64,000 nucleotides of DNA from a virus. Each line of letters begins with the position of its first letter. The stretch's first letter is position 1. Where the stretch lies: positions 1 through 64,000 of IMG/VR virus record IMGVR_UViG_3300027714_002764; one strand, given 5' to 3'. Positions 5,891 through 12,939 of this stretch are shown piece after piece. A program made the translations under genes and the position numbers. The notes under the pieces are model-generated. The model ran no database searches. It was not told the DNA's origin and saw only the letters and a list, made by a program, of their open reading frames with translations.

Positions 5891-6286
5891 ATGGCACTAT
5901 TTAATATAAACGGTAACATTGAATATTCTCAAAGAGGGTATATACAGTCTCCACCAGTTTCAGGTACCAGTGTAAAGAGGCATTACTATGAATGTAAAGC
6001 TCCAGTATACGGTATAGCTAATACAATATCGGGGAAGTATATAATGCCTCATTGGATAAAAGTTCATTATAAAACTGAATTAAAAGATATAATAGTGGAA
6101 GAACCTAAGAAAGAGTTATTTGAAGAGCTATTTGTTGAACCTAAAAACTGGAAGTTTAAATCAGCTACATCAGACAAAGAATATACTGTAAGAGAAGGCA
6201 AAAACGGTCTGCATTGTGACTGTTGGGGCTATATAGCTCATCGTAAATGTAAACATTTAAAAGAAGTTAGTGAAAAAGAATTTTAA
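5891..6286 (+). CDS. SWIM zinc-finger protein, 131 aa
   Basis: The C-terminal LHCDCWGYIAHRKCKHLK has the C-x-C-x8-C-x-H pattern of a SWIM zinc finger (C109, C111, C120, H122). SWIM modules bind DNA or protein partners and are found in recombination-linked and helicase-linked proteins. The first 80 residues are not recognised. The gene has its own early-type promoter and is followed, with a 17-base overlap, by a flavodoxin-fold reductase read from a GTG. Confidence 0.7.
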   Translation: MALFNINGNIEYSQRGYIQSPPVSGTSVKRHYYECKAPVYGIANTISGKYIMPHWIKVHYKTELKDIIVEEPKKELFEELFVEPKNWKFKSATSDKEYTVREGKNGLHCDCWGYIAHRKCKHLKEVSEKEF

Positions 6287-6863
6287 ACACTTAGTTATAG
6301 TAGGTCACCCAGATCAAAAATCATTTTGTTACAACGGTATATTTAAAACAATAGTACGTACATTTAAGAATTGCCCAGATCAGGTAGCTTGGAGAGTTAT
6401 TGATTTATACGAGGATAAACTCCATAGAGATAAGACTGAAATGATACAAAACTATAAAAACTCTGTTACTTGGGCTACTCACTTATATTTTATATCTCCT
6501 GTTTGGTGGTTTAGATTAACTCCTAAGATGGAAACATTCTTTGATGAAGTTCTTACACCGGGATTTGCATATAACTTTGTACCTTTGTTTGGTAAATATG
6601 CTTACCCTAAACCAAAATTAAGTGATAAAAAAGTTAGAACCTATATTACCCATGGAGCTCCAATGCTTCCAGTTATAACACTATATCTGAATTCAGTTAA
6701 GTTAAGATTGGTGATGGGAGTATATACATTTGTATTTGGCTGGAATCTTAATAGATGGTTTAAGACCAAGCAATTCTGGTCCGTACCTTTTGTAGATGCA
6801 GCAACTAGAAAAAAATACTTAAAAGTAGTTACAAAAGACATTAAAAGAGATTTAAATGGATAA
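6270..6863 (+). CDS. Flavodoxin-fold NAD(P)H:quinone-type oxidoreductase, 197 aa
   Basis: The N-terminal LVIVGHPDQKSFCYNGI and the central ISPVWWFRLTPKMETFFDEV are characteristic of the flavodoxin-like fold family that includes MdaB, KefG and NQO-type reductases; the second motif shapes the flavin site. These enzymes pass electrons from NAD(P)H through FMN or FAD to quinones. The only usable start is GTG at 6270. It overlaps the SWIM gene and also the serine hydroxymethyltransferase gene, so all three are likely read from one transcript. Whether it serves host redox balance during infection is inference. Confidence 0.7.
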   Translation: MKKNFKHLVIVGHPDQKSFCYNGIFKTIVRTFKNCPDQVAWRVIDLYEDKLHRDKTEMIQNYKNSVTWATHLYFISPVWWFRLTPKMETFFDEVLTPGFAYNFVPLFGKYAYPKPKLSDKKVRTYITHGAPMLPVITLYLNSVKLRLVMGVYTFVFGWNLNRWFKTKQFWSVPFVDAATRKKYLKVVTKDIKRDLNG

Positions 6864-8001
6864 ACGAATCATAGATATACTCGATAAAGAAAAGAGTAGA
6901 CAATCAAGTACTATAGAACTAATTGCTAGTGAAAACTTTGCTTCTGATGCTGTTATGGAATTAGCAGGCTCAATACTTACAAATAAATACGCAGAAGGGT
7001 ATCCCGGCAAAAGGTATTACAATGGATGTGATCATATGGATGAAATTGAAAATCTTGCAATAGAGGAACTCAAAAAATTATACAGTTGTAACTTTGCCAA
7101 TGTACAACCTCATTGTGGAGCAAATGCTAATACAGCAGTATTTCAAGCATTCTTAAAACCAGGTGATAGGATATTAGGGATGGGTTTAGCTAGTGGAGGG
7201 CATTTATCACATGGAAGCAAACCTAACATTTCAGGTAAAATTTATGATGCATATTCATACGGAGTAGATATAGATGGTTTTTTAAATTACGATGGTATAA
7301 GAAATTATGCATTAAAAGTAAAACCAAAAATGATTATAGCTGGTGCAAGTGCTTATTCAAGAATAATCAATTGGAAGAAGTTTAGAGAAATAGCTGATGA
7401 AGTAGGAGCAATACTTTTAGTAGATATGGCTCATTACTCAGGTCTTATCGCAGGAGGAGAATACCCTAATCCAGTTGAGTATGCAGATGTTGTAACTTCA
7501 ACAACTCATAAAACCTTAAGAGGACCGAGAGGCGGAATTATTATCTGGAATAACTCAGATTATACAAAGAAAATAAATGGAGCAATATTTCCGGGTACTC
7601 AAGGTGGTCCTCTAATGCATATAATTGCTGCTAAAGCACAATGTTTTATAGAAGCAAATACACCAGAGTTTAAGGAGTACTGTGTTAAGGTAAAAGAAAA
7701 CGCAAACCATATGTGTGATGTGTTTAGAGATAATAATATACCTATCTTAACTGGTGGAACTGATTCTCATTTAATATTAATTGATTTATCCACTAAAAAT
7801 CATAGTGGAAAAGTAGTTGCTGATATGTTAGAAGAGAACGGTATTACTGTTAATAAGAACGGTATTCCTAACGATCCTCGTAGTTTCATAGAGACTAGTG
7901 GTATCCGAATAGGAACAGCAGCAGAAACAACAAGAGGCCATAGTAGCAATTGGTTTAGGGAATTAGCAATAAAAATAAGCACTTTAATAAACGGTAAATA
8001 A
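6856..8001 (+). CDS. glyA: Serine hydroxymethyltransferase, 381 aa
   Basis: The PLP-binding segment STTHKTLRGPRGG puts the Schiff-base lysine at residue 219. IELIASENFAS near residue 20 and VDMAHYSGLIAGG at 189-201 are further SHMT signatures. The enzyme converts serine and tetrahydrofolate to glycine and 5,10-methylene-tetrahydrofolate, the one-carbon donor for dTMP and purines. It is shorter than typical bacterial GlyA (about 415-430), with loss near the C-terminus, but all core motifs are present. It lies between a flavodoxin-fold reductase and an FNR-type reductase, so an auxiliary metabolic role for nucleotide supply is a reasonable inference. Confidence 0.9.
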   Translation: MDKRIIDILDKEKSRQSSTIELIASENFASDAVMELAGSILTNKYAEGYPGKRYYNGCDHMDEIENLAIEELKKLYSCNFANVQPHCGANANTAVFQAFLKPGDRILGMGLASGGHLSHGSKPNISGKIYDAYSYGVDIDGFLNYDGIRNYALKVKPKMIIAGASAYSRIINWKKFREIADEVGAILLVDMAHYSGLIAGGEYPNPVEYADVVTSTTHKTLRGPRGGIIIWNNSDYTKKINGAIFPGTQGGPLMHIIAAKAQCFIEANTPEFKEYCVKVKENANHMCDVFRDNNIPILTGGTDSHLILIDLSTKNHSGKVVADMLEENGITVNKNGIPNDPRSFIETSGIRIGTAAETTRGHSSNWFRELAIKISTLINGK

Positions 8002-8002
8002 A

Positions 8003-8179
8003 ATGGGATATATTTTAGTAGGAATTATATGGTGCTGGTGGTTAGAATACTATACTACCAGTAATATTGAAGGTGAATTAGGTAGAAATTGGATTTGGAG
8101 AGAAAGATTCTTCCATACATTATTATGGCCATTTAGTTTGGCAACCTTTGTATATGAATTCGTAAAACAAATACTTTAA
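8003..8179 (+). CDS. Small membrane protein, 58 aa
   Basis: Starts one base after the SHMT stop and ends on a TAA whose last base begins the next ATG. The product begins MGYILVGIIWCWWLEYY, one hydrophobic segment, and has a second near residues 38-52 (HTLLWPFSLATFVY). The tight spacing on both sides supports it being real. Function unknown. Confidence 0.6.
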   Translation: MGYILVGIIWCWWLEYYTTSNIEGELGRNWIWRERFFHTLLWPFSLATFVYEFVKQIL

Positions 8180-8898
8180 TGAACGTAGCAGTACTCGTAG
8201 ATATAATAAAAGAAACTAAATCTAATTGGAGATTTATATTTGAAGATCCTTTACTCGATAGGATTAATATGATATCAGGAATGCTAGTACAGTTATGCAG
8301 CAAACCTGGTAAGGGAGATTCAGCAGTTCGTAACTATTCAGTTGCCTCTTGGGCAGATGGTACTCCTAGATTTGAATTAATTATCACTTATTTAGAAGGA
8401 GGAGCAATGAGTGAATATCTATTTAAAGAGGCTAAGATAGGTGATGAATTTGCGTATAGAGGACCAATGGGAGTATTTACTCTTCCAGAGACTATAGATA
8501 GAGACCTTTACTTTGTATCTACTGGTTCAGGTATAAGCCCTTTCCGTTCTATGATTAATTTTATAGCTCTAAATGGAGTTCCTACTCAAGAAGTAAAACT
8601 TTTCTTTGGTACTAGAAAACAAGAGGACATATGTTATTGGGAAGAAATGAAACTTATTGAAAGCATACTTCCTAATTTTAAATTTATTCCAACTTTATCT
8701 CAAGAAGAGTGGGAAGGTAAAACCGGATATGTTCATGAACATTATCTTAAACTAATAGATGAAAAGCAACTTTTAGGACTACAAAAACCTCTAGTATACT
8801 ATTGTGGATGGGATAGAATGGTAAAAGAAGGTAGAGAGCATTTATCTAAAAGAGGATTTAAAATGACTAAAGATATTAGGGTTGAAATATTTGGATAA
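8179..8898 (+). CDS. FNR-type flavin oxidoreductase, 239 aa
   Basis: RNYSVAS at residues 51-57 is the FAD-binding R-x-Y-S motif. GPMGVF at 95-100 and STGSGISPFRS at 114-124 are the flavin-phosphate and NAD(P)-binding turns of the ferredoxin-NADP reductase family. YYCGWDRMVKEG near residue 210 matches the C-G-x-x-x-M pyridine-nucleotide half. The likely reaction is electron transfer between NAD(P)H and a carrier such as ferredoxin or flavodoxin. There is no fused iron-sulphur domain. With the flavodoxin-fold protein two genes upstream, it could form a small redox chain. Confidence 0.85.
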   Translation: MNVAVLVDIIKETKSNWRFIFEDPLLDRINMISGMLVQLCSKPGKGDSAVRNYSVASWADGTPRFELIITYLEGGAMSEYLFKEAKIGDEFAYRGPMGVFTLPETIDRDLYFVSTGSGISPFRSMINFIALNGVPTQEVKLFFGTRKQEDICYWEEMKLIESILPNFKFIPTLSQEEWEGKTGYVHEHYLKLIDEKQLLGLQKPLVYYCGWDRMVKEGREHLSKRGFKMTKDIRVEIFG

Positions 8899-9966: not shown

Positions 9967-10185
9967 ATGGCATACGTATATAAATCTAAACATACTCCTA
10001 TAGCAGTGGTATACACGATAGGAAGAGGACGTAAATACTATATAAAGGAATTTACAGATCTAAAATGCCCTGATCCTATCGTAGCATCAAGATCTAGAAA
10101 GCTTCCTAATGGAGCTATTATAGAACAGATTGGTGTAGGAACTAGCTTTAAAGAAATATATAAAAAGAAATATAAAGTAAAATAA
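9967..10185 (+). CDS. Hypothetical basic protein, 72 aa
   Basis: A beta-rich basic peptide (YVYKSKHTPIAVVYTIGRG), with no signal peptide or metal site. It is packed between the 53-aa gene and the DUF6580 gene with spacings of two bases and one base. Not recognised. Confidence 0.55.
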   Translation: MAYVYKSKHTPIAVVYTIGRGRKYYIKEFTDLKCPDPIVASRSRKLPNGAIIEQIGVGTSFKEIYKKKYKVK

Positions 10186-10186
10186 T

Positions 10187-10675
10187 ATGAATAAACAAGA
10201 GAAGTTAATATTAGCATTTGTAGCATTTGCAGTTTTAATAAGGTTAATACCACATCCTCCAAACTTTACTCCAATAGTTGCATTAGCGTTATTTGGTTCA
10301 ACTACATTTAGAAATAAATGGTTAGGAATATTTCTACCAATACTAGCATTAGGAATATCTGATTTGTACCTAGGATTTTACTCTATATCAATATGGGTAT
10401 ATAGTTCGTTCTTTTTAATTAGCCTACTAGGAACATATTGGAAAAAGATAAAGGTTACAAATGTATTAACATCATCTGTTATCTTTTTTATTATCACCAA
10501 CTTTGGAGTTTGGTTAGGTGGTTATCCAAAAACAATAGAAGGGTTTTTACTTTGTTATACTATGGCAATTCCTTTCTTTATAAACTCTATAATAGGAGAT
10601 TTATTTTTCAGTTACCTATTAAAGTATTCATTTAGATATTCTGAAAATAAACTCATTAACTTTAACATTAAATAA
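10187..10675 (+). CDS. DUF6580 membrane protein (putative transporter S-component), 162 aa
   Basis: The protein has about five hydrophobic helices. RLIPHPPNFTPIVALALFG at residues 22-40, ISDLYLGFY near 60 and FFIITNFGVWLGGYPKT near 100 match the DUF6580 family seen in Bacteroidota. I recall this family as a putative vitamin transport component, often near corrinoid uptake genes. Here the next gene is a BtuG/YncE-like lipoprotein, which supports that reading. No energising ABC subunits are present, so it would have to work with host partners. The phage origin of this pair is probably a transfer from the host. Confidence 0.75.
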   Translation: MNKQEKLILAFVAFAVLIRLIPHPPNFTPIVALALFGSTTFRNKWLGIFLPILALGISDLYLGFYSISIWVYSSFFLISLLGTYWKKIKVTNVLTSSVIFFIITNFGVWLGGYPKTIEGFLLCYTMAIPFFINSIIGDLFFSYLLKYSFRYSENKLINFNIK

Positions 10676-10698
10676 ATAATAGCCTATAAATAATCAAT

Positions 10699-11718
10699 AT
10701 GAAAAAACAAGTTTTAATACTTATAACTCTTTTTTTAACTTTAATATCCTGTAACAAAGGAGAAGAAGTTTTGGATCCAGTAATTTCCGAGCCGACTGTT
10801 AAACTTTTATTTGTTGCAAACGAAGGAAACTATGGCGAAAAAAACGGATCTATATCAGTAATAGATGAAGAAGGTGTAATTAACACCATAGAGAATGTAG
10901 GAGATGTAGTCCAATCATTGCTAGTTTATAATGATAAGTTATTTGTTATAGTAAATAACTCTCACATGATAAAAGTATTTAATATTTTTAAAGATGGAAT
11001 GTTAGAAATAGATTCTGAAATATCTACAAATGGATCATCTCCAAGAGAAATGATTGTATTTCAAGATAAACTGTACTTTACTAATTGGAACACAAGCGAT
11101 ATCAAAGTTTTAAACCTATTAAACTACACTATTGAATCCTCTATAGAAGTAGACGGTTTACCTGAATCTATTATAGAAAATAATGGAGATTTATATGTTG
11201 GAATTACGATGAACTCTGATTATAGTGATGCATCAACAGTTGTAAAGATTAACCCAGTCGCCAATAATATAACAGATTCATACGAAGTTGGAGACGGTCC
11301 AACCTCTCTATTAGTAGAGGACGATGTAATTTATATTGCTAGAACTTTTTATGATGAAAATTGGAACGCATTTCATGGTACTAGCTCAATAGATATAAAA
11401 CTTGACAATACAATTAGGATAGCAGATTATGGTGCAGGGACTGTATGTGGAGGCTCAGTGCATTCATATGCTCAAAAAACTTATAGAAGTTTCCAAGGAG
11501 GAATTGCTTCTATTAAAGAAGATTTAACTATAGATGAAAGTACTTTAATTGGTAATTACGATGCTAATAATGTTTATTCTGTAGAAACTATTGGCGATAG
11601 AGTATACGTTGGAACATATGACGGGTATGTAAAAATTCTTTCTCAAGATAACGTTGAGATTTCCAATTTTAAAGTAGGAATTTTCCCAGGTGATTTTGCA
11701 ATATGGAAAAATAACTAA
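10699..11718 (+). CDS. BtuG/YncE-like beta-propeller lipoprotein, 339 aa
   Basis: A signal peptide ends in the lipobox LISC (Cys18), and the next residues NKGEE are charged, as in Bacteroidota lipoproteins sent to the cell surface. FVANEGNYGEKNGSISVID, GDVVQSLLVYNDKLFVIV and the repeated blade pattern match the YncE-like, DUF5074-type propellers. Bacteroides BtuG is a surface lipoprotein of this kind that captures cobalamin for the TonB-dependent receptor BtuB. Length suits seven blades. Paired with DUF6580 just upstream, a vitamin B12 capture role is likely but unproven; a different small-molecule ligand is possible. Confidence 0.75.
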   Translation: MKKQVLILITLFLTLISCNKGEEVLDPVISEPTVKLLFVANEGNYGEKNGSISVIDEEGVINTIENVGDVVQSLLVYNDKLFVIVNNSHMIKVFNIFKDGMLEIDSEISTNGSSPREMIVFQDKLYFTNWNTSDIKVLNLLNYTIESSIEVDGLPESIIENNGDLYVGITMNSDYSDASTVVKINPVANNITDSYEVGDGPTSLLVEDDVIYIARTFYDENWNAFHGTSSIDIKLDNTIRIADYGAGTVCGGSVHSYAQKTYRSFQGGIASIKEDLTIDESTLIGNYDANNVYSVETIGDRVYVGTYDGYVKILSQDNVEISNFKVGIFPGDFAIWKNN

Positions 11719-11926: not shown

Positions 11927-12301
11927 ATGAAAAACGTTTTTACATCACTGCTGCTGATAATTACCCTATATGTTACAGCTCAACAAACCCCAGATTTTAT
12001 TACAGCCGATCTTAACCGCAATATGAATGGGGTATGGATTAATTTTGAACATAATAATGTTCTTACTATGACTTTAGACGGTAGATTTAATAGAGTATTT
12101 ACCGACACTGATGGTGTAACAGATACTATTACAGGTAAGTACGAAATCAAAGGAAAGAACTTCTTTGTTACTAAGCCAGATGATCAATATTCACTTCACT
12201 TTGTTTTATCACAAGATAGACATACTCTAGTAGTTACAAGGCCTAGAAAAGATTTAAAGGAGTATGAAGCAACCGCATGGTTATTTTTCAAAGTGAAGTA
12301 A
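11927..12301 (+). CDS. Secreted lipocalin-like small protein, 124 aa
   Basis: The N-terminus FTSLLLIITLYVTAQQTPD is a classical signal peptide with a likely cut after VTA. The mature part has GVWINFEHNNVLTMTLDGRF and YEIKGKNFFVTKPD, resembling small periplasmic beta-barrel (lipocalin-like) proteins of Bacteroidota. It would act in the periplasm. It ends just before the dioxygenase gene. Family assignment is tentative. Confidence 0.6.
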   Translation: MKNVFTSLLLIITLYVTAQQTPDFITADLNRNMNGVWINFEHNNVLTMTLDGRFNRVFTDTDGVTDTITGKYEIKGKNFFVTKPDDQYSLHFVLSQDRHTLVVTRPRKDLKEYEATAWLFFKVK

Positions 12302-12303
12302 AT

Positions 12304-12939
12304 ATGAATCAATATCTAGAACATAAAGAGAAAGGTTTTTACCATCTTAAAAATGTAATACCAGATTATGTTGTTTTAGATCTAAGAGAAAGATTAGTAA
12401 ACTTAAAAATAAAGTATGCTGAGAGAGAAGGAGAACCAAGACATAACGGAACAGGAATGTTCTGGAAAGGGTTAGAGTTAGCTAGCACATTAGATCCTAA
12501 CCTATGGAAGTACTACAAGTCGGAATTTATGTTAGACATAGCACAGAGATTCCTCGACACTGATATACCTTATCTTTTTAATGATCAGGCAGTAGTTAAA
12601 CTTCCAGAAGAAGAGTTCTTCTTTCCTCCCCATACTGATAATAAATTTGGACCTGATCCAGAAGGATCTTTAAGAGGGGAGTTTAGTACAATTAACTGCT
12701 GTATGATATTAGTTGACTCTCCAAAAGAAGCAGGAGGTATATCTTGTTTTAACAAAGTTACTCAAGAGTATGAATTCATAGACACTAAAGCTGGTGATAT
12801 AATAGTAATAGATGGAAACACCCTTCATAAATCAGAAGTAAATAATATTACAGAGCCCCGACCTCTTTATGCCTGTGTATACTCAACACATCCAATTGGT
12901 AACCACGACAAAGGTTACTACAGTGAAAAGTTTATTTAA
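12304..12939 (+). CDS. PhyH-type 2OG-Fe(II) dioxygenase, 211 aa
   Basis: FFFPPHTDNKFGPD holds the iron-binding H-x-D, and GDIIVIDGNTLHKSEVN holds the distal histidine. The arginine in ITEPRPLYACVYS would hold 2-oxoglutarate. This matches the phytanoyl-CoA dioxygenase-like family. I take the ATG at 12304, two bases after the preceding stop, rather than a frame extension to 12277 that overlaps the upstream gene by 25 bases. The substrate is unknown. It is the second iron-dependent oxygenase in this part of the window. Confidence 0.75.
   Translation: MNQYLEHKEKGFYHLKNVIPDYVVLDLRERLVNLKIKYAEREGEPRHNGTGMFWKGLELASTLDPNLWKYYKSEFMLDIAQRFLDTDIPYLFNDQAVVKLPEEEFFFPPHTDNKFGPDPEGSLRGEFSTINCCMILVDSPKEAGGISCFNKVTQEYEFIDTKAGDIIVIDGNTLHKSEVNNITEPRPLYACVYSTHPIGNHDKGYYSEKFI

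Follow-up and report, generated by a model that had tools for sequence, protein, structure and literature searches.

A phage gene pair of the B12-uptake type: a BtuG-like lipoprotein and a DUF6580 membrane protein as a probable viral vitamin B12 acquisition module

What use could a virus have for two adjacent genes that resemble parts of a cellular vitamin B12 (cobalamin) uptake system? B12 limits the growth of many marine bacteria, and such a pair occurs in IMG/VR virus record IMGVR_UViG_3300027714_002764 (177,020 bases), whose viral context is given by genes for T4-type baseplate, tail-fibre and portal proteins. The window analysed here is bases 1-64000 of that record. The original prediction, a phage-borne B12-type uptake pair composed of a DUF6580 membrane protein and a BtuG-like surface lipoprotein, is supported: both genes were confirmed at 10187-11718 by matches to PF20221 and DUF5074 (PF16819), respectively. 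We judge it likely that they constitute a viral vitamin B12 acquisition module in which a BtuG-like lid and a DUF6580 permease operate with the host's BtuB and serve B12/SAM chemistry. The relevant features of the window are as follows.

6270-6863, plus strand: flavodoxin-fold protein (PF02525, E 7.4e-18)
6856-8001, plus strand: serine hydroxymethyltransferase, GlyA/SHMT (PF00464, E 7.1e-149)
8179-8898, plus strand: FAD/NAD(P)H oxidoreductase of the ferredoxin/flavin-reductase type (PF00175 and PF00970)
10187-10675, plus strand: DUF6580 membrane protein, 162 aa (PF20221)
10699-11718, plus strand: BtuG-like seven-bladed propeller lipoprotein, 339 aa (DUF5074; BtuG1/2/3 are the best matches in phmmer, profile and Foldseek searches)
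10699-10752, plus strand: lipoprotein signal peptide with lipobox LIS-C (Cys18), then NKGEE (from the translation)

The open reading frames of the pair are separated by 23 nt. Upstream of them, GlyA would provide a one-carbon supply and may in this way be tied functionally to B12, the oxidoreductase might conceivably act as a cobalamin or flavodoxin reductase, and the flavodoxin-fold protein might conceivably be a redox partner; genes of the FNR type likewise occur close to DUF6580 in viral loci L096, L097 and L106 and in SAR116 locus L089. A PHROG search gave no convincing match for either gene of the pair, DUF6580 was absent from annotated phage records, and searches of the present phage found neither a cobalamin riboswitch nor a TonB-dependent receptor or BtuB. 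A small open reading frame at 9967-10185, just upstream of DUF6580, has a look-alike near DUF6580 in L095 (11759-12043), with which it shares an IGVGTSF-E-KY motif, and a PhyH-type 2-oxoglutarate oxygenase gene follows shortly downstream of the pair at 12277-12939 (PF05721, E 6.9e-10).

The lipoprotein matched DUF5074 (PF16819) at 32.2 bits against a Pfam cut-off of 27.2 (E 7.6e-8). Its N-terminus, MKKQVLILITLFLTLIS followed by CNKGEE, carries a lipoprotein signal with Cys18, which is invariant in a 34-sequence family alignment and aligns with Cys32 of BtuG2. Of the surface-export-like LISC-NKGEE start noted originally, the lipoprotein signal is thus borne out, and the export part amounts to a resemblance of the CNKGEE stretch to the Bacteroidota surface export signal (LES). 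When the PDB was searched by phmmer with the single sequence, the best chains were all BtuG (BtuG identities of PDB entries were taken from PMC10404256). The profile search and structure prediction that had been proposed as checks pointed the same way: a profile of 34 relatives matched BtuG3, BtuG2 and BtuG1 at E 1e-79, 6e-78 and 2e-39, and the AlphaFold2 model is a seven-bladed propeller (pLDDT 91.5) whose top 16 PDB matches in Foldseek were all BtuG (9e-18 to 3e-13), with the first non-BtuG fold at 6e-11. Clustering places the protein beside BtuG and those BtuG-like proteins that are under riboswitch control, and apart from unrelated YncE propellers. By profile and predicted fold, then, the phage lipoprotein is a genuine BtuG relative.

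Identity to BtuG2 is nevertheless low, at 71 of 314 aligned positions or about 22%. In BtuG2 numbering, the phage protein keeps E55, G56, N57, N62, G89, D90, Q93 and S94 as well as N107, S131, P132, R133 and Y316; together with Cys32, these positions (E55-G56-N57, N62, G89-D90, Q93-S94, N107, S131-P132-R133 and Y316) are common to BtuG2, the phage protein and both groups of cellular relatives. It has lost W194, W272 and Y239, so that only Y316 remains among the upper-ligand residues W194, W272 and Y316. The BtuG binding face, on which the original prediction was partly staked, is only partly retained: Y316 and the positions conserved across the family are kept, W194 and W272 are not. The two tryptophans narrow the upper-ligand pocket in BtuG2, and they are also variable in flavobacterial homologues encoded beside BtuB. 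Compared with the BtuG proteins of B. thetaiotaomicron (BT1954, BT2095 and BT1490), surface lipoproteins that capture B12 very tightly and form a complex with BtuB, the phage copy has the same seven-bladed propeller, N-terminal lipoprotein signal, EGN, GD..QS and SPR motifs and Tyr316; it differs in being phage-encoded, in its low identity, in the lost tryptophans, in lying on a record without BtuB, and in belonging to a Marinimicrobia-type branch outside Bacteroidetes. It is a putative corrinoid-binding protein.

The closest cellular relatives are Marinimicrobia proteins (L070, L059 and L080; 43-48% identical) rather than those of Bacteroides, the genus that the original prediction had cited. 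Of 199 Marinimicrobia genomes, 94 contained a relative that scored E 1e-30 or better, and a cobalamin-clan riboswitch (RF00174, once RF01482) lies upstream in 18 of the 20 best Marinimicrobia-type loci, at 21-85 nt from the start codon in 17 of these and at 494 nt in one; one of the two loci without a riboswitch begins at a contig end and has almost no upstream sequence. In Flavobacteriales, where 63 of 296 genomes contain a relative, a BtuB-type receptor gene adjoins the BtuG-like homologue in 17 of 20 loci, and no riboswitch was seen within the flank of 1.5 kb, which is shorter than the receptor gene. The phage's cellular relatives therefore resemble the BtuG family in being linked to BtuB and cobalamin riboswitches. 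In the tree, the Marinimicrobia-type branch separates with 100/100 support and contains the phage protein together with other viral copies. In Marinimicrobia (Fidelibacterota) of this same clade (100/100), for example L070, DUF6580 is about 1.6 kb away from the BtuG-like gene; those cellular genes stand behind a cobalamin riboswitch, whereas the phage pair is adjacent and has none. Between DUF6580 and the BtuG-like gene, Marinimicrobia encode a conserved outer-membrane-barrel-like protein of ~520 aa (L059, 6469-8034; L070, 6523-8097; L080, 6469-8055; L045, 6535-8097), possibly a partner of the lid. BtuG was reported to be confined to Bacteroidetes (PMC6143338); on sequence grounds, the family appears to extend beyond Bacteroidota to Marinimicrobia and phages.

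These linkages bear on whether the lipoprotein might bind some other bulky ligand, such as a heme-like compound, a siderophore or a sugar, with its likeness to BtuG reflecting a common propeller scaffold. YncE/DUF5074 propellers are indeed diverse, and the match at 71 of 314 positions and the loss of two pocket tryptophans leave room for another ligand. We nonetheless regard this as very improbable, since cobalamin-clan riboswitches govern 18 of the 20 nearest cellular loci and the PDB and fold rankings are BtuG-specific.

The host cues disagree. The lipoprotein branch is Marinimicrobia-like, whereas the phage DUF6580 is closest to that of marine Flavobacteriaceae-type genomes, and a DUF6705-like neighbour, just under the cut-off, hints at Bacteroidota. 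SHMT identity gives no host decision (up to 58% to Flavobacteriaceae-type versus 47-55% to Marinimicrobia-type genomes).

The second gene is unambiguous as to family: a search with the DUF6580 model, another of the proposed checks, matched PF20221 over the whole protein at 156.7 bits, far above the curated cut-off of 27 (E 7.7e-46). R19, H23 and a PPN motif are invariant in DUF6580, and Cys123 is nearly so; the BtuM family has an invariant cysteine of its own, Cys80. Its AlphaFold2 model (pLDDT 92.2) had as best PDB folds the S-components of ECF transporters, led by 4huq_S (probability 1.00, TM 0.64) and followed by FolT and ThiT; the Foldseek E-values are weak (0.028 at best), and the likeness is one of fold, without sequence similarity. 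In cells, the neighbours of DUF6580 are BtuB-type receptors, BtuG-like and BtuF-like proteins. A cobalamin-clan riboswitch was present in 21 of 27 DUF6580 loci scanned, a biased rate since 26 of the 27 had been preselected for B12-type neighbours, and it directly precedes DUF6580 itself in L086 and L071.

Gene content suggests what such a protein could do. Among 19 genomes with DUF6580 or a BtuG-like gene, some of them partial, the FecCD (BtuC-type) permease is missing in 18 and CbiQ/EcfT in all 19; the same searches in 14 control genomes found FecCD in 13 and CbiQ/EcfT in 10. Because genomes with DUF6580 and riboswitch-linked BtuB or BtuG lack FecCD and EcfT, another inner-membrane route for corrinoids is needed, and the absences fit a solitary S-component-like stand-in for BtuCD. 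We therefore propose DUF6580, from its modelled fold, as a candidate solitary S-component-type corrinoid permease. It shares with ECF S-components, and notably with the solitary B12 transporter BtuM, the predicted S-component fold of a small vitamin permease, and a further resemblance is the absence of an ECF module from DUF6580 genomes, the same absence having been argued for BtuM (PMC6072759). It differs from both in belonging to another Pfam family with no detectable sequence relation, and BtuM was absent among the fold matches listed; DUF6580 is accordingly compatible only with a solitary S-component and is not classed as a canonical ECF transporter subunit or as BtuM. Alternatively, the pair could belong to a B12-type uptake module in which DUF6580, with its S-component-like fold, has an accessory, sensing or assembly role. 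The fold match is distant, S-component folds occur in receptors too (PMC11109136), and DUF6580 can stand alone in viruses (below). We consider this unlikely, as genomes without FecCD and EcfT require an inner-membrane corrinoid route for which DUF6580 is the recurrent candidate. As a permease, DUF6580 would fill a gap, namely how corrinoids enter through the inner membrane of marine Bacteroidota and Marinimicrobia that lack BtuCD.

Is the present phage exceptional among viruses? One scan detected DUF6580 on 16 viral contigs, and the gene stands alone on some (L001, L002, L092, L094 and L095). For BtuG-like genes, a single-sequence search found no viral copy; seven were recovered once close relatives had been aligned for the search, the 34-row alignment being too diverse for this purpose. 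One of the seven, on a 74,674-base viral contig (L230), is adjacent to DUF6580 as in the present phage (the DUF6580 proteins being 52% identical), in the order Apt-type (adenine phosphoribosyltransferase), DUF6580, BtuG-like and MTA/SAH-nucleosidase-like (MTAN-like). The others, on six viral contigs (L224-L229), are 71-75% identical and immediately follow a clamp-loader gene; the second subunit of the T4-type clamp loader is encoded nearby. At 1-546 of L229, upstream of its BtuG-like gene, is the C-terminal end of a TonB-dependent receptor, and a further viral receptor frame of this type, of 907 aa, was seen on the 276-kb contig of L001 (G012, 197062-198615).

A second arrangement involves the outer-membrane receptor. 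BtuB-like receptors are encoded on about 60 viral contigs (IMG/VR loci L165-L223), and DUF6580 is directly upstream of the receptor in 37 of 59 viral loci checked; there is some redundancy among the viral contigs, and misassembly is possible in metagenomic ones. For all viral receptors tested, the B12 receptor ranked first in NCBIfam, below the curated cut-off, and a PDB search with the L003 receptor ranked E. coli BtuB first. The riboswitch search in related phages suggested originally was rewarded here: an AdoCbl-II riboswitch (RF01689) was found in DUF6580-BtuB phages, on 15 BtuB-like contigs, preceding either DUF6580 or BtuB; the element of L100 spans 7827-7905. The contigs whose hallmark genes were inspected belong to T4-like marine phages; for example, L097 and L100 are flanked by genes for terminase, a gp32-type protein, UvsX, helicase and primase. 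These operons share with the present phage DUF6580 and the presumed purpose of B12 uptake, and have an outer-membrane receptor and a riboswitch in place of the BtuG-like lid.

Annotated phage records, by comparison, contained no real phage BtuG. The only match, MT835494.1 (L234, 'Bacteriophage sp.', human faeces), is a misfiled Bacteroides btu locus encoding BtuG, BtuB, BtuF, BtuC and BtuD. Matches to BtuB in annotated phages were few, at 21-30% identity. Two Salmonella records among them were rejected as bacterial sequence, since 16S rRNA is annotated on them; the remainder comprise a pair of 254-kb records labelled 'Acinetobacter phage MD-2021a' and a pair of short ones.

How might the pair work? 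The BtuG-like lid would capture corrinoids at the cell surface and hand them to the host's own BtuB, proposed as the partner because the phage lacks a TonB-dependent receptor, and DUF6580, as a solitary permease of the ECF S-component fold, would carry them across the inner membrane in place of BtuCD. Family, fold, gene context and ribonucleotide reductase (RNR) class were assigned from sequences and predicted models; corrinoid binding, transport, partnership with BtuB and a benefit to the phage are inferred. A lid on BtuB could also serve superinfection exclusion, capping host BtuB or another TonB receptor against competing phages or bacteriocins. Phage T5 offers a parallel, as its Llp caps FhuA. 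Enterobacterial phages are known to use BtuB as a receptor, the present phage encodes no BtuB itself, and BtuG makes a stable lid on BtuB (PMC10404256). Yet exclusion would leave unexplained why an inner-membrane protein, DUF6580, is paired with the lid, why viruses carry riboswitch-DUF6580-BtuB operons and why SAM-salvage genes are neighbours in L230, and we hold it to be quite improbable. In our preferred reading, B12 acquisition, viruses probably feed B12 into infected cells.

We lean, by a little, towards a broader proposal: that marine T4-like phages commonly carry B12 acquisition in two architectures (AdoCbl-II riboswitch-DUF6580-BtuB, and DUF6580-BtuG-like lid), that DUF6580 is an unrecognised solitary S-component corrinoid permease replacing BtuCD in streamlined marine bacteria, and that the B12 is used for viral SAM and B12-radical-SAM chemistry. 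If true, viral genes for B12 capture and permeation, some under riboswitch control, make vitamin acquisition an infection strategy. A viral role in B12 uptake had previously only been speculated on, by the authors of a study of virioplankton with class II RNR, who suggested that such viruses may enhance uptake and named no transport genes (PMC10547690). In the literature searched, which comprised no preprints and few subscription papers, we found no report of a phage BtuG (as the original prediction had supposed), a phage BtuB or a viral cobalamin riboswitch, and no mention of DUF6580. A riboswitch search of pelagimyophages with a different tool found none (PMC7029224), and the Melnitz paper describes riboswitches as rare in phages, its examples being glutamine riboswitches and a single psbA case in a cyanophage (PMC9004378).

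What, finally, would the cobalamin be for? The original prediction named methionine or ribonucleotide synthesis. The latter fails because the phage carries a class I RNR (NrdB at 119973-120950 and NrdA at 121016-122674 of the record), and B12-dependent ribonucleotide reduction was rejected as the purpose. Viruses with class II RNR depend on host B12 (PMC10547690); the present phage instead combines class I RNR with uptake genes. The remaining half of that prediction fits better once widened to SAM, methionine and B12-radical-SAM chemistry. The record encodes S-adenosylmethionine synthetase (MetK, 147731-148681), adjoined by an MTA/SAH-nucleosidase-like protein and Apt, and at 96514-100050 (L006:13514-17050) a 1178-aa protein in which a B12-binding domain (E 2.1e-9) is combined with a radical-SAM domain (E 1.1e-13). 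This protein may be a cobalamin-dependent radical-SAM enzyme, a B12-binding domain being no proof of cobalamin use. Together with SHMT and the SAM-salvage neighbours in L230, these genes point to B12- and SAM-dependent chemistry, which we consider likelier than RNR. A rise in the cobalamin of the infected cell would feed such chemistry: MetH-driven supply of methionine and SAM could be helped by phage SHMT, MetK and the MTA/SAH-nucleosidase-like protein, and another user could be the radical-SAM protein with a B12-binding domain that the phage itself encodes. Methionine synthase is a possible rather than an established consumer; the MetH activation domain occurs in only 7 of the 19 genomes, several of them partial, and MetH may not be the sole consumer. 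Elsewhere in the record, the sequence shows genes like QueC, QueD, QueE and FolE at 124037-133596, probably for 7-deazaguanine DNA modification, and a GroEL-like chaperonin gene at 143475-145133.
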